From: Alphaproteobacteria bacterium
Lineage (GTDB): Bacteria; Pseudomonadota; Alphaproteobacteria; Micavibrionales; UBA2020
Direction: 5' to 3'
Assembly (NCBI GenBank): GCA_018971405.1
Contig: JAGXAX010000016.1
Coordinates: 1 to 13,296, forward strand
Length of the DNA: 13,296 bases
Position numbers and translations under genes: made by a program
Notes under the pieces: model-generated
What the model was told of the DNA's origin: nothing
The model's database searches: none
The model's input: the letters and a program-made list of their open reading frames with translations, nothing else
In this document: one piece after another, positions 1 to 13,296 of the stretch
Position numbering within the stretch: position 1 is the first letter of the stretch
How the letters are laid out: each line of letters starts with the position of its first letter

Positions 1-342
1 ACCGACCCGACGACCGGCGGCGTTTCCGCCTCTTTCGCTATGCTCGGCGACATCCACATCGCCGAGCCGGGCGCGCAGATCGGCTTCGCCGGTTCCCGCG
101 TCATCAAGGAAACCATCCGCGAAAACCTGCCCGAAGGCTTCCAGACCGCAGAATACCTGCGCAACCACGGCATGGTCGATCTCGTCGTACCGCGCAAGGA
201 GCTGCGCGCGCAAATCGTGACGCTGATCAATATCCTCATGCAAAAGAAGCTCGGCAAGACCGCGACGGAGGACGCCGACCTCCCCGCCACAAAGCAGTCG
301 GGGCGCGGCAAAAAAGACAAGAAAGACAAATCAAAAAATTAA
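1..342 (+). CDS. accD: Acetyl-CoA carboxylase carboxyltransferase subunit beta, C-terminal part (5' truncated by window)
   Basis: The reading frame is open from base 1 and ends at TAA 340-342, so only the last 113 codons are present. AccD and AccA form the carboxyltransferase that moves the carboxyl group from biotin to acetyl-CoA, giving malonyl-CoA for fatty acid synthesis in the cytoplasm. The visible segment carries the typical AccD stretch [17 protein letters not shown], followed by the [11 protein letters not shown] and RVIKETI motifs and the end of the crotonase-like fold ([18 protein letters not shown]). The last 15 or so residues form a lysine-rich hydrophilic tail, common and variable in this family. 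An internal ATG at 40 is not the true start because conserved sequence continues upstream of it. folC begins 11 bases downstream, the usual proteobacterial accD-folC arrangement, so the two are probably co-transcribed. Confidence 0.95.
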
Positions 343-353
343 CGGCGCATGCG

Positions 354-1706
354 ATGACAGGACCTCACTCCGCCGGAACCGCGGGATTGCCTGACTGGAC
401 CTTCTCGCCGCATCCCGCGCTCGAGCAGGCAATCCGCGACGTTTTCGCGCGGCATCCGCCGCTTTATCCCGTCGGGCTTGCGCGTTTGCGCGGTTTCTTC
501 AAAAAACTCGGCAATCCGCACCTGAGGCTGCCCTTCACCTTCCATGTCGCCGGCACGAACGGCAAAGGCTCGACTCTCGCCTTCCTGCAGGCCGTGCTCG
601 AAACAGCGGGCCTGCGTGTGCATAAATACACCTCGCCGCACCTCGTGAGCTTCGACGAACGCATTGTCGTCGGCGGGCAGAACATCGCGCCGGAATCCCT
701 GCTGGAACTGATCGTCGAAGGCGAGCGGGCGGCGACTGGCGAGGAGATATCCTTCTTCGAATTTTTTACCGCGCTGGCGTTTCTCGCCTTTTCGCGCAAT
801 CCCGCCGACGCCGTGCTGCTGGAAACCGGCCTCGGCGGGCTTTACGACGCGACGAACGTCGTGGAGAGCAATCTGGTCGCGCTGCTCACCGGCATCTCCT
901 ACGACCATATGCAGATCCTCGGCGACACGCTGCCGGAGATCGCGGCGCAAAAGGCCGGCATCATCAAGCCGCGCATGCCCTGCGTCATCGCCCCGCAGGA
1001 AGAAAATGTCATCGGCGTTTTCATCAGACAGGCCGCCGCGCTGAAATCGCCGACATTCGTTTATGGCAAGGACTGGACGGTCACGCCCCGCCCCGACGGA
1101 TTCACATACGAAAGCGCGCGGCACACGTTCCGCCTGCCGCCGCCGCGCCTGCAGGGACGGCACCAGCTTTTCAACGCGGGGCTTGCGCTCGCCGCTCTTG
1201 AAAACAGCCCGCATGCCGCGCTGCTGGAACAAAACATCCTCGAAGAGGCCATGAACCGCGTGACATGGCCGGGGCGGCTGCAGAAAATCACGACGGGAAA
1301 ACTGGCGGCGCTGCTGCCCGCGGAATGGGAACTCTGGCTTGACGGCGCGCATAACGACGCTGGCGCCGCCGTCCTCGCGGAACAGGCGGAACGCTGGGGT
1401 CACGAAAAACCGCTGCATCTGATCACCGCCATGAAGCGCACCAAGGACGTCTCCGGTTTTTACGGCCATCTCCTGCCCCATGCCGCAAACATTCAGGCCG
1501 TGGACAGCGGCTGGATCGACGCCCCGATGCTGGCGGCGGAGGACTTATGCGGCCAGATCCGCGCCATGGGCTGCGAAAACGTCAAGACCGCCGCCACTCT
1601 GGAAAGCGCGATCCGGGCGATCGCCTTCCAATTTACCGCCCCGCAACGTATACTTGTGACAGGATCCTTGTATCTGGTGGGCCATGCCCTGAGGCAGCAA
1701 CTCTAA
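354..1706 (+). CDS. folC: Bifunctional folylpolyglutamate synthase / dihydrofolate synthase
   Basis: FolC adds L-glutamate to dihydropteroate, making dihydrofolate, and then extends the polyglutamate tail of folates using ATP; it is cytoplasmic. The 450-residue length is normal for the family. Visible motifs are the Mur-ligase P-loop GTNGKGST (residues 67-74), a TSPHLVSFDERI segment just after it, LLETGLGGLYDATNVV (the Mg/substrate loop), the DHMQILGDTLPEIAAQKAGIIKP block and the C-terminal-domain WLDGAHN motif. The usual loop GGRLDATN reads GGLYDATN here, a small departure. The first roughly 20 residues are not conserved in the family, so a later start is possible, but ATG 354 sits 11 bases after accD, as expected for an operon. 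The response regulator gene starts 12 bases after its stop, so transcription may continue into chvI. Confidence 0.95.
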   Translation: MTGPHSAGTAGLPDWTFSPHPALEQAIRDVFARHPPLYPVGLARLRGFFKKLGNPHLRLPFTFHVAGTNGKGSTLAFLQAVLETAGLRVHKYTSPHLVSFDERIVVGGQNIAPESLLELIVEGERAATGEEISFFEFFTALAFLAFSRNPADAVLLETGLGGLYDATNVVESNLVALLTGISYDHMQILGDTLPEIAAQKAGIIKPRMPCVIAPQEENVIGVFIRQAAALKSPTFVYGKDWTVTPRPDGFTYESARHTFRLPPPRLQGRHQLFNAGLALAALENSPHAALLEQNILEEAMNRVTWPGRLQKITTGKLAALLPAEWELWLDGAHNDAGAAVLAEQAERWGHEKPLHLITAMKRTKDVSGFYGHLLPHAANIQAVDSGWIDAPMLAAEDLCGQIRAMGCENVKTAATLESAIRAIAFQFTAPQRILVTGSLYLVGHALRQQL

Positions 1707-1718
1707 CGGCGGTACGCG

Positions 1719-2417
1719 ATGAAACAGCGGATTGCGCTTGTCGACGACGACAAGAACATCCTCACTTCCGTGACCATGGCGCTGGAAGCGGCGGGCTTCG
1801 CCGTTTCCGCCTACAGCGACGGCGCGACGGCCCTGCGGGGGCTGATGGAAACGCCCGCCGATCTCGCCGTGCTCGACATCAAGATGCCGCGCATGGACGG
1901 CATAGAGTTGCTCAAAAGAATCCGCGAGCGCTCGTCCATGCCGGTGATGTTCCTGACCTCGAAGGACGACGAGGCAGACCAACTCGCCGGTCTGCGCCAC
2001 GGCGCGGATGACTACGTGACCAAGCCTTTCTCGCAGAAGCTGCTGCTGGAACGCATCCGTACCATCCTGCGGCGACAGGAGCTGTTGCAGCAGCCGTCCG
2101 AAAACCAGCCCCCGCAAGTCTGCATGCTGGGAAACCTGACACTCGACGAAGGACGCCATCTCTGCCTGTGGAAGAAACGTCCGGTGGACATGACCGTCAC
2201 CGAATTCCTGCTTGTCAGGGCGCTGACGGAACATCCGGGCCATGTGAAATCCCGCGAGCAGCTGATGAGCGCGGCCTACGGCGAGACGCTGGACGCGGAC
2301 GACCGCACGATCGACAGCCACATCAAGCGCATCCGCGCGAAGTTCAGGGCTGCCGACCCTTCCTTCAACGCCATCGAGACGGTCTACGGCGCGGGGTACC
2401 GCTACAACCATGATTAA
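1719..2417 (+). CDS. chvI: ChvI-type OmpR/PhoB-family response regulator
   Basis: This is a DNA-binding response regulator of 232 residues. The receiver domain (about 3-120) has the acidic pocket DDD (residues 9-11), the phosphoacceptor Asp53 in LAVLDIKMPRMDG, the switch Thr/Ser in MFLTSKDD and the conserved Lys in DDYVTKPFS. A winged-helix domain follows (about 130-230), with the OmpR-like VTEFLLVRAL and RTIDSHIKRIRAKF recognition region and a YGAGYRY wing. The ChvI assignment rests on the sequence and on the next gene being a ChvG-type kinase followed by hprK, the classical alphaproteobacterial order. In rhizobia ChvI controls envelope, exopolysaccharide, motility and acid-response genes. 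Its stop overlaps the chvG start by 8 bases, which implies translational coupling. No strong Shine-Dalgarno sequence is visible; GGCGG at 1708-1712 is the nearest purine-rich match. Confidence 0.9.
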   Translation: MKQRIALVDDDKNILTSVTMALEAAGFAVSAYSDGATALRGLMETPADLAVLDIKMPRMDGIELLKRIRERSSMPVMFLTSKDDEADQLAGLRHGADDYVTKPFSQKLLLERIRTILRRQELLQQPSENQPPQVCMLGNLTLDEGRHLCLWKKRPVDMTVTEFLLVRALTEHPGHVKSREQLMSAAYGETLDADDRTIDSHIKRIRAKFRAADPSFNAIETVYGAGYRYNHD

Positions 2418-4014
2418 CAGGACCAAAAGATACGTTTCGCCCATCACGCTGCGCATTCTCGCCGTGAACCTTGCCGCGCTGCTGATCCTCGCCTTCGGGC
2501 TGCTCTATACCGGCGAATACGAACGCGGGCTGATAGAGCAGGCGCAAGTCTCCCTGCTCGCGGAAGGCCGGCTTCTCTCCGCTGCGCTGGCGGGCGGCGG
2601 CACGCGGGCGAACGTCAATGGCCAGCCCATCCTCGTCAAGGACCTCTCCCTTTTCATGCTGCGCAAGCTCTCGGACCGCAATCCGCTGCGCACCATCGTC
2701 TTCGGCAAGGACGGCAAGATGCTGCTGGACAGCAACCAGCTCGTCGGTCCCGGCGGCGCCATCGAAATGGTGCCGCTCGACGCGCCTTACGATTCATGGC
2801 CGCTCGACAAAAAAATATCCTATGCCTTGCAAAAACTGCTGCGCTTCATCCCCACGCGGGTCAGGCTGCCGAAATACCCCCAAAAACTCTCCAATATTTC
2901 AAACTACCCCGGCATGTACGACGCACTGCGCGGCAATTCGTCCACCGGCGCATGGTACGGCGACGACGGGCATATTCTGCTGACCGCCTCCCTGCCCGTG
3001 CAGGACCTCAAAAACGTGCTGGGCGCGGTGATGGTGCAGCGTTCCGGCAAGCAGATCGAAGAAGCGGTGCACGACGTTCAGGAACGGGTGATCGACCTGT
3101 TCCTGTGGGCGCTCCTGACGACGCTGCTGCTCTCCATTTACCTCACGGAGACGATCGGCATCCCGATCCTGCGCCTCGCCGCCGCCGCCGAGAAGGTCGA
3201 GCAAAGCCTGCTGCTGAAAGATTCCATCCCCGACTTTTCCTACCGGCTGGACGAGATCGGCGTCCTCTCGACGCAATTGCGGCGGATGACCGTGGCGCTT
3301 TACGAACGCATCAATGCCATCGGCAGTTTCGCCGCCGACGTTGCGCACGAGATCAAGAACCCCCTCGCCTCGCTGCAAAGCGCCGTGGAGACATTCTCTC
3401 TGGTCAAAGACCCCGCGCAGCAGCAGAAGCTTCTCTCCATCATCGCCGACGATGTGGAGCGCCTCGAACGGCTGATCACCGACATCTCCGCTGCCTCGCG
3501 GCTTGATTCGGAGATCAACCACGCCCCCAAAACCGTTTTCAACCTCGCGAAGTTCCTGCAGGAGGTCGTGAAGGGAGAAACGGAAAATCTCGGCCTGAAA
3601 GGCAAGCTTTTCCTCGACATCGAGAAAAACCGCAGGTTCATCCTGTCGGGGAACGAAATCCAGATCGGGCAGGTCGTCACCAACATCATCCAGAACGCCG
3701 CCTCCTTCATCCCGTCCGATGGCGGAAGGATCACCGTGTCCTGCCGCATGCAGCAGGACAAGATTGTCGTTCACATCGACAACAACGGCCCTCCCGTCAC
3801 GGAAGGGAAGCTGGAGACCATCTTCGAACGGTTCTATTCCGAGCGCCCGCCGACGGAAAGGTTCGGCATGCACTCGGGCCTCGGCCTCAGCATCTCGCGG
3901 CAGATCATCCGCGCGCACAAGGGCGCCATTTTCGCGCGCAACATCACGTCCGACAAGGGCCGCACCGAAGGGGTGCGCTTCACCATCATCCTGCCCGCGG
4001 AGGGAAAGAAATGA
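2410..4014 (+). CDS. chvG: ChvG-type membrane sensor histidine kinase
   Basis: This inner-membrane sensor kinase of 534 residues should phosphorylate ChvI. The layout is a hydrophobic helix at about 12-33, a periplasmic sensor region at about 35-226, a second hydrophobic helix at about 227-248, a HAMP-like linker, a dimerisation domain with the H-box FAADVAHEIKNPLASLQ (phosphoacceptor His313), and an ATPase domain with N-box QIGQVVTNIIQNA (Asn425/Asn429) and G-box HSGLGLSISRQI (490-493). All catalytic motifs look intact. The start overlaps the end of chvI by 8 bases, and its TGA shares ATGA with the hprK start, so chvI-chvG-hprK behave as one translational unit. In rhizobia ChvG is held inactive by periplasmic ExoR; no exoR-like gene is visible in this window. 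Confidence 0.92.
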   Translation: MINRTKRYVSPITLRILAVNLAALLILAFGLLYTGEYERGLIEQAQVSLLAEGRLLSAALAGGGTRANVNGQPILVKDLSLFMLRKLSDRNPLRTIVFGKDGKMLLDSNQLVGPGGAIEMVPLDAPYDSWPLDKKISYALQKLLRFIPTRVRLPKYPQKLSNISNYPGMYDALRGNSSTGAWYGDDGHILLTASLPVQDLKNVLGAVMVQRSGKQIEEAVHDVQERVIDLFLWALLTTLLLSIYLTETIGIPILRLAAAAEKVEQSLLLKDSIPDFSYRLDEIGVLSTQLRRMTVALYERINAIGSFAADVAHEIKNPLASLQSAVETFSLVKDPAQQQKLLSIIADDVERLERLITDISAASRLDSEINHAPKTVFNLAKFLQEVVKGETENLGLKGKLFLDIEKNRRFILSGNEIQIGQVVTNIIQNAASFIPSDGGRITVSCRMQQDKIVVHIDNNGPPVTEGKLETIFERFYSERPPTERFGMHSGLGLSISRQIIRAHKGAIFARNITSDKGRTEGVRFTIILPAEGKK

Positions 4015-4475
4015 CGGCGCACGCGAAAACAGTCCTGCCCGGGACGGCAGTGGCCGTCGGCGGCGCGGACTTCCCCGCCTCGGCCGTCCTGCTGCGCGGA
4101 TTTTCTGGCCGCGGCAAGTCTGACCTTGCCTTCCGGCTCATCGGGGCGGGCGCAACGCTGATCTGCGACGATCAGGTGGCGCTGGAGCGCCGTCAGGACG
4201 ATAAAATCATCGCGGAACCGGTCGAAAGCATCCGCGGCCTGCTCGAAGTGCGCGGCCTCGGGCTGTTGAAATATCCAGTCGCGCCGCCTACCCAGTTGCG
4301 GCTGGCGGTCGATCTCGTTTCGCGCGAGGACGTGCCGCGCCTGCCCGACCCGGAAACGGTGGATATCCTCGGGGTTCCCGTCGCCGTTCTGAAGCTCCAC
4401 GCCTTCGACGCCTCCGCGCCCGCAAAAATCATCCGGGCAATAGAACTGGTGCATCGGCCCGATCTTTTGGTATAA
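4011..4475 (+). CDS. hprK: HPr kinase/phosphorylase, short alphaproteobacterial form
   Basis: This protein of 154 residues corresponds to only the C-terminal catalytic domain of Firmicutes HprK (about 310 residues), the form usual in alphaproteobacteria. Visible motifs are the Walker A loop GFSGRGKS (30-37), the DD pair of LICDDQVAL (Asp53/Asp54) that follows it, and the HprK signature LEVRGLGLLKYP (about 78-89). His4 in the N-terminal AHAK segment is a candidate for the His that precedes the P-loop in this family. HprK phosphorylates, and may dephosphorylate, the regulatory serine of HPr, encoded two genes downstream. The start ATG overlaps the chvG stop by four bases (ATGA). The final codons TTG-GTA-TAA embed a TATAAT box, treated as a separate feature. 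Confidence 0.93.
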   Translation: MTAHAKTVLPGTAVAVGGADFPASAVLLRGFSGRGKSDLAFRLIGAGATLICDDQVALERRQDDKIIAEPVESIRGLLEVRGLGLLKYPVAPPTQLRLAVDLVSREDVPRLPDPETVDILGVPVAVLKLHAFDASAPAKIIRAIELVHRPDLLV

Positions 4476-4476
4476 T
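4468..4476 (+). promoter_or_regulatory. Extended -10 promoter candidate for manX-ptsH-ptsI
   Basis: TGG followed by TATAAT matches the extended -10 consensus TGN-TATAAT exactly. It lies over the last codons and stop of hprK, 42 bases before the manX ATG. No good -35 box is visible at 16-18 bases upstream, but extended -10 promoters can work without one. A start about seven bases downstream would give a leader of some 35 bases carrying the GGGGAGGA ribosome site. This is inferred from sequence only; it could be a chance effect of the codons used. Confidence 0.4.
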
Positions 4477-4506
4477 CCGGAGCGCCATCGTCGCGCTTGC
4501 ATATTC

Positions 4507-4514
4507 GGGGAGGA
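4507..4514 (+). promoter_or_regulatory. Strong ribosome binding site for manX
   Basis: GGGGAGGA lies four bases before the ATG at 4519. It is one of the best Shine-Dalgarno matches in the window. It supports this start and suggests efficient, independent initiation of the PTS genes after the 43-base gap that follows hprK. Confidence 0.75.
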
Positions 4515-4518
4515 AAAC

Positions 4519-4920
4519 ATGATCGGTCTTGTCTTGGTGACACACGGACGTCTGGCGGAAGAATTCATCGCCGTCATGGAGCATGTCGTCGGCCCGCAGG
4601 AACAAGTCGCCGCCGTCTGCATGGCGCCGGACGACGACCTCGATGACAAACGCAAGGAGATCCTCCAGAAGATCAAGGACGTCGACAAGGGCGGCGGCGT
4701 CCTGCTGCTCACCGACATGTTCGGCGGCACGCCCTCCAACCTCGCCATCTCGGTCACGCAGGACAAGAAGATAGAGGCACTGGCGGGCATCAACCTGCCG
4801 ATGCTCATCAAGCTCGCCTCGGCCCGACAGACGGAAACGCTGCACCAGCTTGCCGCGAGCGGACAGGAAGCGGGACGGAAATACATCCACGCCGCCTCCG
4901 CCCTGCTGAACGCCCCGTGA
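4519..4920 (+). CDS. manX: PTS mannose-type EIIA domain protein
   Basis: This 133-residue single-domain EIIA of the mannose family accepts phosphate from HPr. The start MIGLVLVTHGRLAEEF contains the phosphoacceptor His9. LLLTDMFGGTPSNLAISV is the conserved EIIA-Man loop, and the AGINLPMLIKLA segment follows. No fused EIIB and no neighbouring EIIB/EIIC/EIID transport components are visible. As in other alphaproteobacteria, it is probably a terminal phosphoacceptor or regulator rather than part of a sugar importer. ptsH starts 9 bases after its stop. The symbol manX follows common alphaproteobacterial usage; ptsM or EIIA-Man may be used elsewhere. Confidence 0.92.
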   Translation: MIGLVLVTHGRLAEEFIAVMEHVVGPQEQVAAVCMAPDDDLDDKRKEILQKIKDVDKGGGVLLLTDMFGGTPSNLAISVTQDKKIEALAGINLPMLIKLASARQTETLHQLAASGQEAGRKYIHAASALLNAP

Positions 4921-4929
4921 CGCGCCTCC

Positions 4930-5205
4930 ATGACGTCCGCGCTTGAAAAGACGGTACAAATCCGCAACCTGCGCGGCTTGCACGCGCGGGCAGCTGCCAA
5001 GTTCGTCAAGATCGTGGAGTGCCGCAAGGCCGACGTCACCGTGGCCAAGGACGACATGTCCGTCCGCGGAGCGTCCATCATGGGGCTTTTGATGCTCTCC
5101 GCCAGCAAGGGCACGCACATCCGCATTGCCGTCTCCGGCGACGATGCCGCATCCGTCCTTGATGAACTCGTCAGCCTCGTCGAGCGGAGGTTCGATGAAG
5201 AATGA
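4930..5205 (+). CDS. ptsH: HPr phosphocarrier protein
   Basis: HPr is the small cytoplasmic PTS phosphocarrier; 91 residues is the usual length. Both regulatory sites are present: His18 in NLRGLHARAAAKFVK, which receives phosphate from enzyme I and passes it to EIIA, and Ser49 in RGASIMGLLML, matching the serine site targeted by HPr kinase. Having both sites next to hprK and ptsI indicates that HPr here integrates a PEP-dependent and an ATP-dependent signal. The gene starts 9 bases after manX without a clear ribosome site, suggesting coupling, and its TGA overlaps the ptsI start by 11 bases. Confidence 0.95.
   Translation: MTSALEKTVQIRNLRGLHARAAAKFVKIVECRKADVTVAKDDMSVRGASIMGLLMLSASKGTHIRIAVSGDDAASVLDELVSLVERRFDEE
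5186..5190 (+). promoter_or_regulatory. Ribosome binding site that fixes the ptsI start
   Basis: GGAGG lies four bases before the ATG at 5195, inside the end of ptsH. It favours 5195 over the farther upstream in-frame ATGs at 5126, 5144 and 5162, whose encoded residues are only the out-of-frame shadow of conserved ptsH sequence. Confidence 0.75.
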
Positions 5206-6955
5206 CGGGGAAGAAATCGTCCTGACCGGACTCGGCGTCTCGCACGGCATCGCTGCCGGGCCCGCTTATCTGGTACAGATCGAGCATCCACAGCCGCCGG
5301 ACGCTGCGCTGGAGCCAGAGCAGACGGAGACGGAAATCGCGCGGTTCGACGACGCCGTAAGACAGGCTCAGCGCGAGCTTGCCGCGCTGAAGCGCAAGTC
5401 CACGGGGCTTCCGGACGACGCGGCGGAGGAGATCGGCCTGCTGCTCGACGCCCACATGGCGATGCTCTCCGGCTCAAGGCTGATCCGCGGCGTGCGGGCG
5501 CGCATCCTCAGGGATCAGGTCAACGCCGAAAGCGCCATCCGGCGCGAGATCGATTCGATCGCCGGCCAGTTCAACCGCATCAAGGACGCCTATATCGCCG
5601 CGCGCGGCGAGGACGTGCGCAACGTCGGCTACAGGATCATCCGCATCCTGATGAACGTGCCCTATCTTTCGCTCGACGACGTGCCGCCGGGCGGCATCGT
5701 CCTCGCGCTCGAAATCTCGCCCGCCGAAACCGCCCTGCTCGACCCGCGGCGCTTCGCGGGCATCGCCACCGTCTACGGCGGCCCCGCCGGACACACCGCC
5801 GTGATGGCGCGGAGCCTCGGCCTGCCCGCCGTTCTCGGGCTCGACCGCGCGGCGCTGGAAAGCCTGCATCACGGCACGCCCTCCATCGTGGACGGCATCG
5901 GCGGCAAGCTCGTCCTCAACCCCTCGCAGGCGACGCAGCGGCATTACGAACGGCGCATGCAGGACCTCAAGGCCGACAAGGCCGCCCTCGACAAGCTGAC
6001 GCGCCTGCCCGCCGTCACAACGGACGGCGCCGAGATTGTTTTGCGCGCCAACCTCGAAATCCCGCGCGAGATCGACAATCTCCCCGCCTGCGGCGCGGAC
6101 GGCATCGGGCTTTTCCGCACGGAATTCATGTTCATGAACCGCGACACCATTCCGGCGGAAGACGAGCAGTTCGAGATTCTCGTCGAGATCGTCCGCGCCA
6201 TGAAGGGCGCGCCGGTGACTTTCCGCACGCTCGACATCGGCGGCGACAAGCTCGCGCGCGCGCTGGGCGCGCATCTCGATGCGTCGGACAATCCGGCGCT
6301 GGGGTTACGCGCGATCCGCCTTTCTTTGAAAGAGCCGCATCTTCTGGAAGCGCAGTTCCGCGCCATTATGCGCGCAGGATACTTCGGACCCGTGCGCATC
6401 CTGCTGCCGATGGTCACCACGGCGGCGGAGATCGAGGACGCGCGCCTTATTCTCCAAAAATGCCATGCCGCACTGGAAAAGGAGAAAGTCCCCATGGCGG
6501 CGCAGATGCCGCCGCTCGGGGCGATGATCGAAATTCCCGCCGCCGCCCTCTCGGCGGATAGCCTCGCCGCCGTGTCGGATTTCTTCGCCCTTGGCACCAA
6601 CGACCTGATCCAGTACACCGTCGCCATCGACCGCGGCAACGACCAGGTGGCGGCGCTCTACAACCCGCTCAACCCCGCCGTGCTGCGACTCATGGAATTT
6701 TCCATCCAGGCGGGATTGCGCGCCGGCATCCCCGTCAGCATCTGCGGGGAGATGGCGGCCGATCCGAAACTGACCGCCCTGCTCCTCGGCCTCGGTATCC
6801 GCGAGATGTCGCTGGGGGCGGCGAGCCTGCCGCGCATCAAGCAGCGAATCCGCAGCCTGGCCCTCGCCCATGCCGAAAGCCACGCAAAATACGTTATGGA
6901 TCAATATGATCCCGACCGCATCGCCCAGATCGTCAATTCTTTCAAAACTCAATAA
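5195..6955 (+). CDS. ptsI: PTS enzyme I (phosphoenolpyruvate-protein phosphotransferase)
   Basis: Enzyme I takes phosphate from phosphoenolpyruvate and passes it to HPr. With the start at 5195 the protein has 586 residues, close to the usual 570-590, and no N-terminal GAF domain, so it is the PtsI form rather than PtsP. Visible parts are the N-terminal VLTGLGVSHGIAAGPAY strand, the HPr-binding helical region, the phosphohistidine loop GGPAGHTAVMAR (His200), and the PEP-binding barrel with DGIGLFRTEFMFMNRD, FRTLDIGGDK, GTNDLIQYTVAIDRGN and SICGEMAADP (Cys517). The start overlaps the ptsH stop by 11 bases and is preceded by GGAGG. An in-frame extension to 5126 exists but encodes ptsH-shadow residues. 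Many proteobacteria with hprK-manX-ptsH keep the enzyme I gene elsewhere; here the complete phosphorelay is contiguous. Confidence 0.95.
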   Translation: MKNDGEEIVLTGLGVSHGIAAGPAYLVQIEHPQPPDAALEPEQTETEIARFDDAVRQAQRELAALKRKSTGLPDDAAEEIGLLLDAHMAMLSGSRLIRGVRARILRDQVNAESAIRREIDSIAGQFNRIKDAYIAARGEDVRNVGYRIIRILMNVPYLSLDDVPPGGIVLALEISPAETALLDPRRFAGIATVYGGPAGHTAVMARSLGLPAVLGLDRAALESLHHGTPSIVDGIGGKLVLNPSQATQRHYERRMQDLKADKAALDKLTRLPAVTTDGAEIVLRANLEIPREIDNLPACGADGIGLFRTEFMFMNRDTIPAEDEQFEILVEIVRAMKGAPVTFRTLDIGGDKLARALGAHLDASDNPALGLRAIRLSLKEPHLLEAQFRAIMRAGYFGPVRILLPMVTTAAEIEDARLILQKCHAALEKEKVPMAAQMPPLGAMIEIPAAALSADSLAAVSDFFALGTNDLIQYTVAIDRGNDQVAALYNPLNPAVLRLMEFSIQAGLRAGIPVSICGEMAADPKLTALLLGLGIREMSLGAASLPRIKQRIRSLALAHAESHAKYVMDQYDPDRIAQIVNSFKTQ

Positions 6956-6979
6956 CTTGCTGGACAAACAGCGATTTTC

Positions 6980-7009
6980 CATTATTTTAAACGGCGTTAA
7001 AAAATAATG
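6980..7009 (+). repeat. Inverted repeat between ptsI and ahcY (operator or hairpin candidate)
   Basis: Two perfect 9-base arms, CATTATTTT (6980-6988) and AAAATAATG (7001-7009), flank an inner near-palindrome AACG-G-CGTT (6990-6998). The element is strikingly AT-rich at its edges compared with the surrounding genes and ends one base before the purine-rich ribosome site of ahcY (AGGGAGA, 7011-7017). It also contains TTAA-N6-TTAA (6987-7000), one base short of the CtrA consensus spacing TTAA-N7-TTAA. It could be an operator for ahcY or an mRNA hairpin at the ptsI 3' end. A simple rho-independent terminator is less likely because A rather than T follows the right arm on the + strand. Confidence 0.55.
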
Positions 7010-7022
7010 CAGGGAGACAGCG

Positions 7023-8336
7023 ATGACGGCAAAACTCAAAACCCACGGCGCAGGTGATTTTAAGGTAAAAGATCTTCATTTATCCAACTGGGGTGAAAAG
7101 GAAATTTCCATCGCTGAGACGGAAATGCCCGGCCTCATGGCCATCAAGAAGGAGCTGCACGACAAACGGCCGCTCAAGGGCGCACGCATCGCCGGTTGCC
7201 TGCACATGACGATCCAGACCGCCGTCCTTATTGAGACATTGGTTGATCTTGGCGCAGAAGTGCGTTGGTCTTCCTGTAATATTTTTTCGACGCAAGACCA
7301 CGCCGCCGCGGCAATCGCCGTGCAGGGCATCCCCGTCTTCGCCTGGAAGAACATGACCGAGGAGGAGTTCTGGTGGTGCATCGAGCAGACCATCAACGGC
7401 CCGAACGGCTGGACGCCCAACATGATTCTCGACGATGGCGGGGACCTCACCAAGCTCATGCACGAGAAATATCCGGAACTTCTCAAAGACGTGAAAGGCA
7501 TCTCCGAGGAAACGACCACGGGCGTCCACCGGCTTTATGAAATGGCGAAGAAGGGCACGCTGAAAGTTCCCGCCATCAACGTGAACGATTCCGTGACCAA
7601 ATCCAAGTTCGACAACCTCTACGGCTGCCGCGAGAGCCTCGTAGACGGCATCAAGCGCGCGACCGACGTGATGGTCGCCGGGAAAATCGCCGTCGTCTGC
7701 GGCTACGGCGACGTCGGCAAGGGCTGCGCCGTCTCGATGCGCGGGCAGGGCGCCCGCGTCGTCGTCACCGAGATCGACCCGATCTGCGCGCTGCAGGCGG
7801 CGATGGAGGGTTATCAGGTCATGACGATGGATGAAGCCGCAGCGCTGGGCGACATCTTCGTCACCGCGACGGGCAACGTCGACGTCATCACCATCGACCA
7901 CATGCGCGCGATGAAAGACCGCGCCATCGTCTGCAACATCGGCCACTTCGACAGCGAAATCCAGATCGAGGCCCTGCGCAACCTCCCGTGGGAGGAAGTC
8001 AAGCCGCAGGTGGACGAAGTGATCTTCCCCGACGGCAAGCACCTGATCGTCCTCGCCAAGGGTCGCCTCGTCAACCTCGGCTGCGCCACCGGCCACCCGA
8101 GCTTCGTCATGAGCGCATCGTTCACCAATCAGGTGCTGGCGCAGATCGAGCTGTGGAACAACGCCAAAGCTTACGAAAATAAGGTCTACGTGTTGCCCAA
8201 GCATCTCGATGAAAAAGTGGCGCGCCTGCACCTCGACAAGCTCGGCGTCCGCTTGACGAAGCTTACGGAAAAACAGGCGGCATACCTTGGCATCGATGCC
8301 GCAGGCCCCTTCAAGCCCGACCACTACAGGTATTGA
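7023..8336 (+). CDS. ahcY: Adenosylhomocysteinase (S-adenosylhomocysteine hydrolase)
   Basis: AhcY reversibly hydrolyses S-adenosylhomocysteine to adenosine and homocysteine, relieving product inhibition of SAM-dependent methyltransferases; it is a cytoplasmic NAD-dependent enzyme, usually tetrameric. The 437-residue protein shows the whole family pattern: [21 protein letters not shown] near the N-terminus, [17 protein letters not shown], the [13 protein letters not shown] region, [19 protein letters not shown] with the NAD/substrate lysine, the Rossmann loop [24 protein letters not shown], and the C-terminal FKPDHYRY tail that contributes to the neighbouring subunit's cofactor site. ATG 7023 has the ribosome-like AGGGAGA a few bases upstream. 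ahcY next to this PTS cluster and a PAS kinase is a recurring alphaproteobacterial arrangement. Confidence 0.97.
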
Positions 8337-8360
8337 ATTAGCCGGATCTTTCCGCACCAC

Positions 8361-8397
8361 CCCCGCGCGGGGCTTGTTCCCTTGCGCGAAGCCCTTT
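8361..8397 (+). terminator. Possible weak terminator or leader hairpins after ahcY
   Basis: The 72-base gap between ahcY and the next gene contains a perfect 12-base palindrome CCCCGCGCGGGG (8361-8372). It overlaps an alternative stem GGGCTT (8370-8375) pairing with AAGCCC (8389-8394), which is followed by TTT (8395-8397). The two stems are mutually exclusive. The T-run is short, so termination would be weak; the structure might instead influence initiation of the downstream gene 12 bases later. Confidence 0.3.
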
Positions 8398-8408
8398 AAC
8401 ATGCACTT

Positions 8409-10799
8409 ATGACAGGTTCAGAGACAGAGATACCGCCCGAGCAGCACCGCCCGTCGGCCTTGAGCCGTCTGCTGGACGCTCTCGTTCCGCTGCGCCGCAG
8501 CTACCGCAAACAAGTGCGGGAAAACCAGCGGCTGGAATCCTTCCTGCGCGCCGTGCCGGTCGAATATTGCGGCTGGGATCAGGCGGGGGTGCAGGCTATC
8601 TCGCCCGGGTTTTGCAATCTGCTCGGCATCGCGAACGTCAACGGCCTCGCCGACATCCAGTCCGTTCTTGGCCCGGGCGACGCCGCGGCGCTCGAAAGCC
8701 TGTTCGACCAGCTCGAACAGCACGGCGAAACGTTCGAACTGAACGTGCAGACAACCGCCGGCGGAAAAATGCTGAAGATCTCCGGCAAGCAGGGCGCGGC
8801 GGACGCGCAGGCGCCGATCTTCTCCGTCATCTGGATCGCCGACATCACGCCTTTCGCGCAAAAATCCCTGCATGACATGGAGTCCGTCGCCGCCGCCGAA
8901 AAGCGCGAGAACGACCTGCGCGCCGCCATCAACGGGCTGCCCTTCCCCGTCTGGCTGCGCAATCAGGCGCTCGACCTCGTCTGGTGCAACAAATCCTACT
9001 CCCGCCTGGTGGATGACACGGCCGCCGCCGTCATCGCCGACCAGAAAGAGCTGCCCCTCACCGGCGGCGGAAAAGCCGACATGGGCCAGCGCGTTCTGGC
9101 GCAGCGCGCGCTCGCCAAGCTGGCGCCGCAGACCTTGCGCGGGCACGTCATCATCGACAAGCAGCGCCGCCTCGTCGAAATGACGGAAGCGCCGGTCGAC
9201 GCCGGAAAGCAGGTCATCGGCGTCGCACTCGACGTGACGCGCGAGGAAGAATGGGAATCCTCCTGCAAGCGGCTGGCGGGCTCGCACCATGCGGCCATGG
9301 AGCAATTGCGCACCGCCATCGCCATGTTCGACACCGAGACGCGGCTGGAATTCTACAACTCCGCCTACGAGCAGCTCACCGGCATGTCGGGCGCGTGGCT
9401 CGACACCAAACCGCGGCTGGTCGACATCATCGACAAGATGCGCGAACTGCGCAAATTGCCGGAACAGGCGGACTACAAGCTCTTCAAGCAGAACTGGGTG
9501 AAAAAATTCACGACGCTGCTCGACCCTTCGGAGGAAATGCTTTACCTGCCGGACGGTTCCGTCATCCGCATGATCGTCGTGCCGCGCGCGGCCGGCGGCG
9601 CCATGCTGACGCTCGAGGACGTGACCAGCCATCTCAAGCTCGAAACCTCCTACAACACGCTCATGGCCGTGCAGCAGGAAACCATGGACAATCTCGCCGA
9701 GGGCGTCGTGGTGTTCGGCGAGGACGGGCGCGTGCGGCTTTCCAACAATTCCTTCGCAAAAATGTGGGGCATCCCGCCGGAAGACCTCACGGGGGCGCTG
9801 CATATCTCCAAGCTGGTGGAACGGACGAAGTCGTTCTTCGACGCGCACGGCTGGCCCGCCATGCGCCAGACCCTGCTCGGCAACGGCCTGGAGCGCGAGC
9901 CGCGCCGCGGGCGCATCGAGCGCAACAACGGATCGGTGCTGGAATATTCCGTCATGCCCCTGCCCGACGGCAACATTCTCAACGCCTATTTCGACATCAC
10001 CGACACTGTCAAGGTCGAACAGGCTCTGCTGGAGAAAAACGCCGCGCTGCAAGCGGCAGAACGGCTGAAGACGGACTTCCTCGCCAACATGTCGTACCAG
10101 CTGCGCACGCCGCTCAACGCCATCATGGGCTTTGCGGAAATGCTACAGCAGCAGTATTTCGGCCACCTCAACGAACGGCAGATGGAATATACCGGTAGCA
10201 TGATCGAGGCCGGACAGCGGCTCATTTCTCTCGTCAACGACATCCTTGACCTCTCGACGATCGAGGCGGGATACTTCAGCCTCTATCCGGTCGAGATCAA
10301 CGTCCACGACCTGCTGGAGCGCGTCGTCCACCTGACGCGGGAATGGGCACACAAGCAAAACCTCGAAATGGTCATCCATTGCCCCGATGCGCGCCTGACC
10401 GTGATGGCCGACGAGCGCCGCCTCAAGCAGGTCCTGCTCAACCTCATCAGCAACGCCATCAATTACAGCCCCAACGGCGGGAAGATAACGCTGATCGCTG
10501 AAAAATCCGGCGACACCGTTTCCATCGGCGTGAAGGACACGGGCATGGGTATCCCCGAAGAGGATATGGCCAGCGTCTTCACCCCCTTCGAGCGGATCAA
10601 CAGCAAAAAAGCCCACCGTCGCAGCGGCGCCGGACTTGGCCTCACGCTGGTCAAGAACATCGTCGAACTGCACGGCGGCACGGCGGTTCTTGAAAGCAAG
10701 GAAGGCATTGGTACGCTCGTTACCTGCCGCCTGCCTGCTGGCGGGCCGAATGCGGCCCTTAAAGGCAGCGCCATCTCGGAAAAGAAAAACGCCATATAA
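8409..10799 (+). CDS. divL: DivL-like multi-PAS pseudo-histidine kinase with tyrosine at the phosphoacceptor site
   Basis: This 796-residue protein has four PAS-like segments (about 43-150, 170-280, 295-420 and 430-545), a coiled-coil linker, a HisKA-like dimerisation helix pair (about 555-620) and a HATPase domain (about 665-777). The H-box reads LANMSYQLRTPLNAI, so Tyr563 replaces the usual phosphoacceptor His. The ATP-binding motifs appear intact: NLISNAINYSP (Asn682), DTGMGIP (Asp710) and RSGAGLGLTLV (740-744). Caulobacter DivL has a similar length, four PAS domains and a tyrosine (Tyr550) at this site; it binds phosphorylated DivK and tunes the CckA-ChpT-CtrA cell-cycle pathway rather than acting as a normal kinase. 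No clear transmembrane helix is visible; the N-terminus only has an amphipathic stretch (about 17-36). The start has no Shine-Dalgarno sequence and overlaps a three-codon ORF. Family assignment is confident; strict orthology is less so. Confidence 0.8.
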   Translation: MTGSETEIPPEQHRPSALSRLLDALVPLRRSYRKQVRENQRLESFLRAVPVEYCGWDQAGVQAISPGFCNLLGIANVNGLADIQSVLGPGDAAALESLFDQLEQHGETFELNVQTTAGGKMLKISGKQGAADAQAPIFSVIWIADITPFAQKSLHDMESVAAAEKRENDLRAAINGLPFPVWLRNQALDLVWCNKSYSRLVDDTAAAVIADQKELPLTGGGKADMGQRVLAQRALAKLAPQTLRGHVIIDKQRRLVEMTEAPVDAGKQVIGVALDVTREEEWESSCKRLAGSHHAAMEQLRTAIAMFDTETRLEFYNSAYEQLTGMSGAWLDTKPRLVDIIDKMRELRKLPEQADYKLFKQNWVKKFTTLLDPSEEMLYLPDGSVIRMIVVPRAAGGAMLTLEDVTSHLKLETSYNTLMAVQQETMDNLAEGVVVFGEDGRVRLSNNSFAKMWGIPPEDLTGALHISKLVERTKSFFDAHGWPAMRQTLLGNGLEREPRRGRIERNNGSVLEYSVMPLPDGNILNAYFDITDTVKVEQALLEKNAALQAAERLKTDFLANMSYQLRTPLNAIMGFAEMLQQQYFGHLNERQMEYTGSMIEAGQRLISLVNDILDLSTIEAGYFSLYPVEINVHDLLERVVHLTREWAHKQNLEMVIHCPDARLTVMADERRLKQVLLNLISNAINYSPNGGKITLIAEKSGDTVSIGVKDTGMGIPEEDMASVFTPFERINSKKAHRRSGAGLGLTLVKNIVELHGGTAVLESKEGIGTLVTCRLPAGGPNAALKGSAISEKKNAI

Positions 10800-10841
10800 A
10801 TTAATAACTTAAATATAATGCGCCCGCTTTCGAACGGCCAG

Positions 10842-10870
10842 TTGACAGCGGCTTCTTGAACTTTTATTAT
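10842..10870 (+). promoter_or_regulatory. Sigma70-type promoter candidate P1 upstream of the deamidase gene
   Basis: TTGACA (10842-10847), a perfect -35 consensus, is followed after 17 bases by TATTAT (10865-10870), a five-of-six -10 match. It lies in the AT-rich 118-base gap between the DivL-like gene and the protein-glutaminase gene, oriented toward the latter. Confidence 0.55.
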
Positions 10871-10884
10871 TTATGGCATATAAT
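10856..10884 (+). promoter_or_regulatory. Sigma70-type promoter candidate P2 upstream of the deamidase gene
   Basis: TTGAAC (10856-10861) is followed after exactly 17 bases by a perfect TATAAT (10879-10884). It overlaps candidate P1, offset by 14 bases. A start near 10891 would leave a leader of about 27 bases that includes AGGAG at 10908-10912, five bases before the ATG at 10918. Two consensus-like promoters suggest the downstream pair is transcribed independently of the upstream genes. Confidence 0.6.
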
Positions 10885-10917
10885 TATTGAAATATAATCG
10901 CATCATCAGGAGCTTAC

Positions 10918-11652
10918 ATGAAGAAATATGCCGCAGAGAGACGGCGCGTAGCGATCTCATTCCATGAGCAAGCTTCCCGCAAAAATACCGATGTCCCGAT
11001 AGACGACAAGGGCATCGTTTCATTCAAGCATGCGCTGGAAATATTCGACCAGCTTGCCGACCGGCCGGATATCGCGTTCGCTTATACGCAGGATGGCTGC
11101 TACGCGCGCGCGCACCTGATGTGCCGGGCCATGGCCATGCTGGGCCTTGCCCCGCAAAAGGCCTGGGCTTTTGAAAGCGACGGGATATACAGCCCTTGCC
11201 TCTACGTCACGATGCCGAATGGGAAAAAGGAGGAATGGGGATGGCACGTCGCGCCCGCCCTGCTCGTGCGGATGCCGGATTGCAGCGTGCAAAACCTTGT
11301 TTTCGATCCCGGTCTGTTCGACGGGCCGGTCACGGCGCATGACTGGGCGGATCTCATACACGCGCATCAGGAGAACCTGCAAATCGTCCCGTTCGGCACC
11401 GCCCCCAACGGCTACACGGGGCATTATTTGCCTCATGACCCATACGCGAACCCGGACACGCATGCCAAAGAAACGATGCTCAAATACCTGAAGTGGCAGG
11501 ATCGCGCGCCACGCATCGTTTTTCAGACAGACGCACGCAGGATATTCTGCAGAAAGAAGCGCATTCGCCTCCTGAAAGCGGGAAAGACCTGGGTCTCCGT
11601 CCGGCAACAACCCCATGCGGTCAAAGAGAAAACACGCGCTCTGAAACAATAG
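10918..11652 (+). CDS. Protein-glutaminase-like papain-fold deamidase, no visible signal peptide
   Basis: The 244-residue protein matches the protein-glutaminase family, enzymes that convert glutamine side chains in proteins to glutamate and release ammonia. The core motif DGCYARAHLMCR gives nucleophile Cys61, EWGWHVAPALLV gives His110, and NLVFDPGLFDGPVTAHDW gives Asp130. The His-Asp spacing of 20 equals that of Chryseobacterium protein-glutaminase (Cys156/His197/Asp217, from memory), and similarity extends through an IAFAY strand before the cysteine and a GHYLPHDPY segment after the triad. Unlike the secreted enzyme, it has no hydrophobic signal peptide and no N-terminal propeptide; the N-terminus is basic. 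The last 45 or so residues form a Lys/Arg-rich extension. AGGAG precedes the ATG, and two promoter candidates lie upstream. It could be an intracellular modifier or an effector delivered by another route. Target unknown. Confidence 0.8.
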   Translation: MKKYAAERRRVAISFHEQASRKNTDVPIDDKGIVSFKHALEIFDQLADRPDIAFAYTQDGCYARAHLMCRAMAMLGLAPQKAWAFESDGIYSPCLYVTMPNGKKEEWGWHVAPALLVRMPDCSVQNLVFDPGLFDGPVTAHDWADLIHAHQENLQIVPFGTAPNGYTGHYLPHDPYANPDTHAKETMLKYLKWQDRAPRIVFQTDARRIFCRKKRIRLLKAGKTWVSVRQQPHAVKEKTRALKQ

Positions 11653-11660
11653 GCATCCTC

Positions 11661-11873
11661 ATGGAAACCGTGCAATCCAGCAGCAAAGTGCAAAAAATCC
11701 GCGATGACGCCGAAGGATTTCGCGTGTCTTTCTCCGGCCATTCCGGATATTTCCGCGTCGCAAAAACGCCGGAAACACGCGGTATCAGAGAAAAAATCAT
11801 CAAGGCGCACACGGACGGCGCGGAAATAACTTTCGACTACGACAGAAACCTGACAATCATAAACGTTCTCTAA
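11661..11873 (+). CDS. Small protein downstream of the deamidase; candidate inhibitor or immunity partner
   Basis: This 70-residue ORF starts eight bases after the deamidase stop and ends at TAA 11871-11873. The frame is open further upstream (from 11493), but that stretch overlaps the deamidase gene and has no conserved look, so ATG 11661 is preferred; AGG at 11651-11653 is a weak ribosome site. The predicted pattern is a polar N-terminus, a beta hairpin (GFRVSFSGHSGYFRVAK), a helix (GIREKIIKAHTDG) and two short strands (AEITFDYDRN, LTIINVL). By eye this layout resembles the inhibitory propeptide of Chryseobacterium protein-glutaminase, which carries VSF, then FYEIK, then a helix and a VHIF-type strand. 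An in-trans inhibitor role is inference from that resemblance and from gene position. No family is otherwise recognised. Confidence 0.65.
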   Translation: METVQSSSKVQKIRDDAEGFRVSFSGHSGYFRVAKTPETRGIREKIIKAHTDGAEITFDYDRNLTIINVL

Positions 11874-11898
11874 GAAAAGCCGCGCCGATTGCCGTTTG

Positions 11899-11920
11899 CC
11901 CCATACACATGTATCATGGG
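11899..11920 (+). repeat. Imperfect inverted repeat before the TMTC-like gene
   Basis: CCCCATACA (11899-11907) and TGTATCATGGG (11910-11920) pair except for a two-base bulge. The structure sits in the 52-base gap between the small ORF and the next start codon, five bases before the ATG. No T-run follows, so a terminator is unlikely; it could mask the weak ribosome region or be incidental. Confidence 0.3.
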
Positions 11921-11925
11921 CCGCG

Positions 11926-13296
11926 ATGGACAAGGTTTCCTCGAAAACACGTCTTGAGAATATTTGCGCGGGGCGCGCCGCATACGCGCTGCTCTGCCTT
12001 AGCGTCATCATTGCCTATTCAAGCGTCTGGCCCAATAGTTTCGTGTTCGACGACCGCGCGCTGATCGTCGGCAATCAATTCCTGCGCCGCTGGGGAGACC
12101 TGCCGAAATTGCTGACAAGCCTCAACTTCTCGGGATTCGGCACCGACAGGCAGGGTTTTTACCGCCCGATCCCAATGCTGCTGCACTTTTTCGTCTATCA
12201 GGCCTTTGGCCTCTCGACACAGGCCTTTCACGCCGTCAACATAGCCCTGCAGGCGCTGAACGCCTGCCTTCTCTGCCGTTTCGGCCAACGCTCGGGATTT
12301 AAAAAGGGTGTCGCGTTTTCCGCCGCGCTGCTCTGGGCCGTGCATCCGCTCTTCACTGAAGCCGTCGCCTACATGTCCTCGACACCGGAGTTGCTCGGCG
12401 GCACGTTCTGCCTGCTGGGGCTGACGGCACTGCTGCCGGATTTCACGCCGCGCAGGATATGGCGCGCTGCCGCTTTTTACCTGCTGGCGCTGGGAACGAT
12501 CGAGACGTCGGTGGTTTTTCCGGCGCTGGCGGCGGCAACGTTCTTCTTCATGAACGAAACGCGCATCGATATCCGCGCCTACCGCAAAATGTGGCCGCTG
12601 TGGCTGATGGCCGCGCTTTACATCGCCGCATGGCTGGTTTACATGCATGTTTCAGGCTACAACATGAACGGCGCGATGCAGGGCGTGACCGACCCGCGCT
12701 TTCCGGCCTACGCGACAAGCATTCTCCATCGCACGCTGACGGCGCTTGCCACGCTGCCTGTCTATCTCGGCCTGATCCTCTGGCCGCATGGACTGCATAT
12801 GGAGCGCCTGTTTCCGGTTTTCACGTCGCTCCTGCATCCGCTGCCCGCCGCAGGAGCGCTGATGGTTGCGCTCGCGTTCCTGCAAATATATACGGGCCGC
12901 GCGAAGCGCGGACTGGCCTTAAGCTTCGGCCTTATCTGGTTCGGCATCGCCTTTTCGCCGATGACCGGCATCCTTTTTCCCGTCAACGCGCTGGTGTCGG
13001 AACACTGGATGTATCTGCCGCTTATGGGCCTTGCGCTCGGCGTGCTGGAAACGGTTGCGGAATTTCTTGAAGGCAAACGCGCCATCGCGCTTGTCACGCT
13101 CGCGGCGCTGGCGTTCGGCGCCGTCACGTTCCAGCAGTGCAAAGTCTGGCGCGATCCTGAAACGCTCTACCGCAACATCGTCGAAAACGGCGGCAACCGC
13201 TATCGCATCAGCGAAGACGTCGCTTACTATTACATGGAGCATCACGATTTCAACAAGGCGATCCCGCAGTTCGCATGGCTGACCGCCCACACCTTC
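11926..13296 (+). CDS. Polytopic TMTC/DUF1736-like membrane protein, N-terminal part (3' truncated by window)
   Basis: Direct translation from ATG 11926 is open for 457 codons to the last base of the window, so the stop lies outside. The protein has many hydrophobic helices, the first at about residues 18-34. Just after it comes NSFVFDDRALIVGN, the aspartate-pair loop typical of TMTC/PMT-type membrane proteins. Further family-like blocks are FYRPIPMLLHFFVY, HAVNIALQALNACLL, WAVHPLFTEAVAYMSSTPELLGG and LVSEHWMYLPLMGLALG. The last residues (RYRISEDVAYYYMEHHDFNKAIPQF) look like the start of a TPR repeat, as expected for proteins with a membrane domain followed by soluble TPRs. In animals TMTC proteins are O-mannosyltransferases; the substrate of bacterial relatives is generally unknown. 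No good ribosome site is seen; GGG at 11918-11920 is the best candidate. Confidence 0.75.
   Translation, partial: MDKVSSKTRLENICAGRAAYALLCLSVIIAYSSVWPNSFVFDDRALIVGNQFLRRWGDLPKLLTSLNFSGFGTDRQGFYRPIPMLLHFFVYQAFGLSTQAFHAVNIALQALNACLLCRFGQRSGFKKGVAFSAALLWAVHPLFTEAVAYMSSTPELLGGTFCLLGLTALLPDFTPRRIWRAAAFYLLALGTIETSVVFPALAAATFFFMNETRIDIRAYRKMWPLWLMAALYIAAWLVYMHVSGYNMNGAMQGVTDPRFPAYATSILHRTLTALATLPVYLGLILWPHGLHMERLFPVFTSLLHPLPAAGALMVALAFLQIYTGRAKRGLALSFGLIWFGIAFSPMTGILFPVNALVSEHWMYLPLMGLALGVLETVAEFLEGKRAIALVTLAALAFGAVTFQQCKVWRDPETLYRNIVENGGNRYRISEDVAYYYMEHHDFNKAIPQFAWLTAHTF

Follow-up and report, generated by a model that had tools for sequence, protein, structure and literature searches.

Can a zymogen propeptide begin as an immunity protein? 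A gene pair in a 13,296-nucleotide stretch of alphaproteobacterial DNA makes this question testable (the window, meaning this whole stretch: order Micavibrionales, GenBank assembly GCA_018971405.1, contig JAGXAX010000016.1, positions 1 to 13,296). There, a gene for a protein-glutaminase-type deamidase is followed by a 70-residue open reading frame (ORF), which an earlier note on this DNA had likened to the protein-glutaminase propeptide. For this pair, we computed that the small gene is real and conserved, that it is paired with the enzyme and encodes a propeptide homologue, and that the enzyme keeps its catalytic residues. In our view, the small protein is probably a free-standing propeptide homologue which, in the producer, attaches to the deamidase encoded next to it and blocks the active site, the two genes together acting as a zymogen in two parts, or an enzyme with its antidote.

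10918..11652, + strand: protein-glutaminase-type deamidase, 244 residues, with neither a signal-peptide-like start nor a propeptide domain in cis (PF18626, PDB matches, AF2 and Foldseek)
11098..11100, + strand: codon of Cys61, the predicted nucleophile (Cys in 20 of 20 rows of alignment A3 and 24 of 25 of alignment A5)
11245..11247, + strand: His110 codon, a predicted catalytic residue (no substitution in the 20 rows of A3 or the 25 of A5)
11305..11307, + strand: Asp130 codon, a predicted catalytic residue (no substitution in the 20 rows of A3 or the 25 of A5)
11653..11660, + strand: intergenic gap of 8 bases between the enzyme stop and the start of the small gene (sequence)
11661..11873, + strand: stand-alone propeptide-like protein, 70 residues, ATG start, predicted inhibitor of the upstream enzyme (sequence, profile and fold comparison)
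11733..11753, + strand: codons of SGHSGYF, residues 25–31 of the small protein, with Ser28 in place of propeptide Ala47 (gapless alignment and structure match)

The window enzyme belongs to PF18626 (E 2.3e-23, 82.8 bits against a curated cut-off of 25) and matches the PDB protein-glutaminases 8z3i, 2zk9 and 3a54 by sequence. An AF2 model of the enzyme alone reached a pLDDT of 86.2, and the top six Foldseek matches of this model in the PDB were all protein-glutaminase chains (E 3e-9 to 1e-7). Alignment A3, whose 20 rows include two fragments of solved enzymes, places the Cys-His-Asp residues in the window enzyme; we take Cys61, His110 and Asp130 to be the catalytic residues of protein-glutaminase. 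The NCBI equivalog PG_glutam_Chrys (NF040782) gave 49.1 bits over the catalytic part only, below its cut-off of 250. The enzyme is predicted to deamidate protein-bound glutamine; to our knowledge, the natural role of protein-glutaminase is unclear.

The 70-residue ORF lies where it had been placed, at 11661–11873 and eight bases past the enzyme gene, and the motifs VSF, YFRVAK, GIREKIIKAH and AEITFDY are present in the order claimed. It looks protein-coding and under selection, with dN/dS of 0.06–0.22 in four comparisons with close relatives. An alternative in-frame GTG start at 11493 would give 126 residues; the conserved region starts near the ATG. Inspection of the 8-base gap revealed no clear ribosome-binding site, and stop-start coupling to the enzyme gene is possible. 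The small protein matches nothing in Pfam, NCBIfam or PADLOC, nine of its relatives scanned against Pfam stayed below the cut-off, and neither window protein matches the PADLOC models of anti-phage defence. As a single-sequence query, the ORF found nothing in Pfam or the PDB and only itself among 5.8 billion proteins; its relatives were reached only by six-frame searches of related genomes and by profiles. The work offers a functional hypothesis for a family of small proteins that has no name in the libraries searched.

The propeptide query used for comparison is an exact match to PDB 3a56. A profile of 15 rows, one of them a duplicate of the window protein, ranked 3a56 and 3a54 first among 177,635 PDB sequences, with weak E-values of 0.025 and 0.045 and the next protein at 0.27. 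The profile-profile comparison proposed in the earlier note found the expected similarity: hhalign aligned the small-ORF profile with the propeptide at 9.5e-6 (probability 82.7, one comparison) over a gapless core of 53 columns. Iterated profiles widened the family through 80 enzyme loci to 109 domains, and shuffled ORFs, used as a control, gave no match at E 0.1 in any of the five rounds. A profile of 31 stand-alone copies, containing neither a cis propeptide nor a solved enzyme, matched the two propeptide entries at 5.5e-7 and 2.4e-6 (next protein 0.14), although it is not a wholly blind test, since its rows were partly recruited with profiles that already contained cis copies; the 15-row profile is the blind one. 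The predicted fold of the small protein is that of the propeptide, residues 1–70 superposing on propeptide residues 20–90; across the sequence and structure alignments, identity to the propeptide is only 13–16%. Finally, NF040782 matched one stand-alone relative (locus L191) over the propeptide part (E 9e-4, model positions 14–111) and gave no match to the relative in L192. The window gene is a separate ORF and not a covalent N-terminal part of the enzyme; its homology to the propeptide is supported by sequence profile and predicted fold, and on this point the earlier note is borne out.

Pairing with the enzyme was assessed in the window's own order. A six-frame search of 94 genomes of relatives found the enzyme in 15, the window's included, with the small gene adjoining it in 13; the two genomes without it are G028 (L045) and G021 (L046, two enzymes). 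Profile A2, applied to 142 genomes of the order, detected the small gene in 13 (14 copies), all among the 22 that carry PF18626 (Fisher p 5.7e-13), and a chance coincidence of the two genes is rejected by these genome-wide counts. Weak single-sequence matches in G054 and G062 (E 0.07 and 0.10) and a second one in G030 were not confirmed by the profile and are ascribed to chance. PF18626 is rare across the class (5 of 385 genomes), and no natural fusion of enzyme and domain occurs among 66 proteins of the window's clade, its own included, at E 1.

Beyond the order, we named the best 80 of 173 confirmed enzyme loci. The domain is encoded only separately in 33, separately as well as in cis in 24, only in cis in 12 and in neither form in 11, so that a separate related gene adjoins the enzyme in 57 of the 80. 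Examination of 4,322 ORFs gave 61 separate domain ORFs, none of them more than 400 bp from an enzyme ORF. Because these loci were chosen around enzymes, genome-wide counts weigh more. Among 129 genomes of an order around a Bacteriovorax genome, 40 carry the free domain (51 copies) and 94 carry PF18626, 39 of the 40 having both. At least 37 of the 51 free copies adjoin, within 800 bp, one of the 53 enzyme matches compared, and the other 14 have no enzyme that close among the matches listed. Re-reading the DNA retrieved around these 14 showed none either, whereas the one control locus (L190) did show its enzyme. About 11 of the 14 solitary partners are firm, as the contig ends roughly 100 bases upstream in L180 and L189 and roughly 600 in L187. 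The survey of enzyme-plus-small-ORF pairs that the earlier note had called for accordingly finds them conserved in the window's order, the Bacteriovorax-type order, the Bacteroidota and the named loci, and it links the enzyme family to predator-type bacteria (Bacteriovorax, Micavibrio-like).

Re-reading partnerless loci with a wider profile gave matches in L048 and L049. No partner was seen near the enzymes of L045/L094, L046, L050, L051, L052, L080–L085, L087, L096, L102, L108, L132, L137, L147, L148, L150 and L166, nor near that of L121, whose contig ends 19 bases on.

Several loci are unusual in their own right. The solitary partners of L181, L183, L184 and L185, in the Bacteriovorax-type order, lie downstream of a common neighbour that we presume, by eye, to be an aspartate-semialdehyde dehydrogenase, with one small ORF between in L183. 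Four genomes of the same order (G603, G604, G610 and G628) hold 11 to 14 PF18626 matches each, an unusual expansion. In L040 (G017), the glutaminase domain occupies residues 104–209, towards the N-terminus of an 828-residue protein (6125–8611, − strand), and two different partner genes lie directly upstream (8708–8905 and 8911–9171, − strand). On contig C133 of G143 (L100/L049), glutaminase genes alternate with 128-residue proteins that carry the partner domain as their second half and perhaps a weak repeat of it as their first; the initial one of the enzyme copies is split over two overlapping frames.

In the Bacteroidota, the separate gene accompanies the textbook form of the enzyme. Of 395 genomes drawn evenly from the phylum, 12 contained PF18626; in the DNA around the enzyme, 7 of these have the cis propeptide together with a separate copy (two of them, L195 and L196, repeat the earlier loci L161 and L131) and 5 have neither. 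L191 and L192 are Chryseobacterium-type by NF040782 (520.8 and 470.5 bits, cut-off 250), their enzymes agreeing with the solved enzyme at 86–90% of 92 core residues. Of 118 genomes sampled within the genus of these two, 70 match a profile of the propeptide-like domain, on which, and not on PF18626, this count rests. In 65 of the 70, a cis copy in a long frame is followed 965–1046 bp further on, on the same strand, by a second copy in a short frame; the other five comprise three genomes with a single long-frame copy, one with three long-frame copies and one with a short stretch containing stops. The partner in L191 and L192 appears from its sequence to start with a lipoprotein-like signal. We predict that Chryseobacterium-type bacteria encode another inhibitor in a gene of its own, some 1 kb downstream from the protein-glutaminase propeptide, which, if true, would matter for producing the food enzyme and for understanding what protein-glutaminase is for.

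Enzyme and partner also share a predicted cellular address. By a home-made hydropathy rule, with two-partner loci counted twice and L100 and the duplicates L088–L094 left out, the signal-peptide calls agree in 60 of 66 pairs (43 with a signal-like start on both proteins, 17 on neither) and are discordant in 6. Neither protein carries a signal-peptide-like start in the alphaproteobacterial pairs tested, the window enzyme and its partner included; both do in most pairs of the Bacteriovorax group. Most Bacteroidota partners have such a start as well, and the cis form is present at most loci of that phylum, usually alongside the free one.

How might such a pair work? The small protein would bind the adjacent enzyme as the cis propeptide does, within the producing cell, and the loop around Ser28 would block the active site at Cys61. 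A deamidase lacking its own propeptide would then be harmless until separated from the small protein, and the two may part on export or injection. The purpose could be to guard the cell's own proteins before export or to provide immunity against siblings. The pair has the layout of a toxin and its immunity gene: the cognate gene adjoins the enzyme, and relatives of it include solitary and tandem copies, which favour the immunity reading. What we infer here is that the small protein binds the enzyme, blocks Cys61, is released when the enzyme is exported or injected, and protects the cell; as a toxin, the enzyme would be delivered to other cells and harm them. The type IVB secretion gene DotI/IcmL marks a possible, though unspecific, exit route for the window enzyme. 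Passages of PMC13139226 report that the Chryseobacterium pro-enzyme is inactive until its propeptide is cleaved, that cleavage raises the activity of a Bacteroides enzyme 17-fold, and that the cleaved propeptide stays with the mature enzyme, 4 M urea being needed to strip the Chryseobacterium one.

The propeptide residue that Ser28 replaces varies between groups. The residue that distinguishes 3a56 from 3a54 is number 47, and the title of 3a54 reads "A47Q1 mutant". In cis copies (36), the position holds A in 18, E in 9, P in 5, T in 3 and Q in 1. Free copies hold A in 14 and Q in 11 in Bacteroidota and Chlorobi (25), A in 21, S in 3 and P in 1 in the Bacteriovorax type (25), S in 5, A in 5, D in 3 and P in 1 in Alphaproteobacteria (14), and A in 3 and P in 1 elsewhere (4). 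The Gln occurs in free copies of Chitinophagaceae-type loci (for example, L131, 1222–1572) and is an odd natural counterpart of the A47Q mutant. Gln (11 of 25 free Bacteroidota/Chlorobi copies) and Glu (9 of 36 cis copies) are a possible substrate and product of the enzyme; a partner with Gln at this position might be deamidated by its own enzyme.

Beside the mixed recruitment of the 31-row profile, several observations weigh against a free inhibitor acting on its neighbour. Of 106 enzyme rows, 29 have the cis propeptide as well as the partner, which is therefore no mere substitute for the former. The earlier note had named deamidase loci lacking the small ORF as a refutation; they do occur, in 9 of the 22 PF18626 genomes of the window's order, most of them with weaker PF18626 matches, while the other 13 have the partner. 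In the Bacteriovorax-type order, 55 of 94 enzyme genomes show no partner at the threshold used, and from both figures it follows that the enzyme can exist without one. One partner adjoins an enzyme with Gly for the catalytic Cys (L039, G009). In that locus the enzyme (7955–8650, − strand) reads DDGGYARTH at the catalytic position, whereas the adjacent partner gene has an open frame; the enzyme may be dead and retained together with its antidote. Lastly, the Bacteroides pro-form is reported to be partly active, so tight inhibition by the domain need not be universal (PMC13139226, in part).

Of the explanations that compete with inhibition, one in which the small protein is a trans-acting chaperone (foldase) of the deamidase, with inhibition secondary or absent, survives best, although we consider it unlikely. 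Propeptides of secreted enzymes often aid folding, as is established and described for subtilases in part of PMC6993865, and the shared address of partner and enzyme would fit equally well; solitary partner genes and tandem copies are, however, unexpected of a dedicated foldase, and loci with a cis propeptide often have a partner too. An effector of the type IVB (Dot/Icm) system with its cytoplasmic export chaperone seems very unlikely. DotI/IcmL was found in 51 of 55 genomes of the window's relatives, its own included, a published survey notes PF18626 genes near Dot/Icm genes (PMC10318531, in part), and neither window protein has a signal-peptide-like start. Yet the secretion gene is present almost throughout the searched genomes, with or without the pair, and a cytoplasmic role cannot be general, as most Bacteriovorax-type and Bacteroidota partners themselves have a signal-peptide-like start. 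We give no more credence to a classical type II toxin-antitoxin module with the cell's own proteins as its target: the two genes are adjacent, enzyme first and tightly spaced, but Pfam and PADLOC yield no antitoxin match for the window protein, whose 70 residues show no evident DNA-binding part, and exported versions exist in other bacteria. One Bacteroidota relative matched the Phd/YefM antitoxin model, though below its threshold (17.8 bits against a cut-off of 29.8). That the likeness to the propeptide is accidental is extremely unlikely, for despite empty single-sequence searches and the low identity, the profile searches, the predicted fold and the NF040782 match already contradict it by converging on the same domain of the same protein.

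Which form came first, if the small protein is indeed a free inhibitor? A quick, unrooted enzyme tree of 106 rows, in which long branches are numerous and 33 of the 101 inner branches stay open, comprises 29 rows with both forms, 40 with the free form only (the window enzyme among them), 11 with the cis form only and 26 with neither. On it, 2 changes account for the distribution of the cis form, against 14 for the free form, and all cis rows fall in a single 41-row clade (support 98). L167, within that clade, was scored as neither because its cis match was borderline (protein E 0.0088, domain E 0.017). A tree of the domain (115 rows; 74 columns, too short to resolve) has 4 cis/trans changes and does not reject a single cis origin (p-AU 0.24). 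Since the free form occurs tree-wide, the cis form in one clade and both in many loci, copying of a free inhibitor into the enzyme gene is the simpler reading, although gain and loss of the cis form are formally indistinguishable on an unrooted tree. On the plain reading, the free form would be the older or wider one and the zymogen derived. The idea that an ancestral zymogen became a two-gene system is probably wrong: the free form is spread over the tree, the fused form sits in one clade, and both occur together in 24 of 80 loci and 65 of 118 genomes. A fuller scenario, to which we give somewhat less than an even chance as a whole, would begin with a deamidase effector accompanied by a free OB-fold antidote, located with the enzyme in the cytoplasm (Micavibrio-like), in the periplasm (Bacteriovorax-type) or probably as a lipoprotein (Chryseobacterium-type); the textbook propeptide would stem from one later fusion, with the free copy mostly kept, and the zymogen would be a late form of a far broader system of enzymes and their immunity proteins. 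If so, even the industrial-type enzyme would carry an overlooked second inhibitor gene beside it.

Spi, the inhibitor of SpeB, has been likened to a propeptide. Searches of open-licence PMC papers turned up no stand-alone inhibitor of protein-glutaminase or PF18626, with PMC11297309 and PMC7863939 contributing nothing further, and our survey suggests an apparently unrecognised enzyme-plus-inhibitor pair, the inhibitory action being putative, that is widespread over several bacterial phyla. The protein-glutaminase propeptide of Chryseobacterium (PDB 3a54, 3a56) is the closest known counterpart, with a homologous domain, the same predicted fold and a gapless core alignment; it is an N-terminal part of the enzyme chain that is cleaved off, whereas the window protein is a separate gene product without a signal-peptide-like start. 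Herpetosiphon glutaminase proteins (L096, L102 and L108) share the enzyme domain and also have a gene directly downstream, but this gene encodes a lipoprotein-like protein of 186–187 residues that does not match the propeptide-like profile and is likely a different immunity gene. The one of these enzymes tested (L096) is fused to WXG100, which, PF18626 itself apart, was the only domain found when ten long or odd enzyme proteins were checked for delivery domains.

Among bacterial cysteine enzymes, SpeB/spi, staphopain/staphostatin and the Bacteroides C10 protease/bti offer a similar layout, an enzyme gene co-transcribed with a small inhibitor gene; Spi and the staphostatins are thought to guard the producer, and the Bacteroides C10 enzymes also have a cis propeptide. 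These enzymes are proteases and not deamidases, and the relevant passages of PMC3462683, from which this comparison is taken, do not state propeptide homology of the inhibitors. The I29 inhibitors CTLA-2alpha, crammer and BCPI are free proteins that resemble the propeptide of the enzymes they inhibit; their targets are cathepsins of animals, and gene adjacency is apparently no feature of them in the account excerpted from PMC4089206. SUB1-ProM of Plasmodium, as described in part of PMC6993865, is a stand-alone propeptide-like protein encoded beside enzymes, one of which it inhibits by assay, but the enzyme is a subtilase, the organism a eukaryote and the propeptide of another family. The earlier note knew of no described example of its arrangement, which may hold for deamidases; for proteases, propeptide-like inhibitors were already known. 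Since stand-alone inhibitors of this kind have been described for proteases (PMC6993865, PMC4089206, each in part), the pair in the window would be the deamidase version of a known principle.
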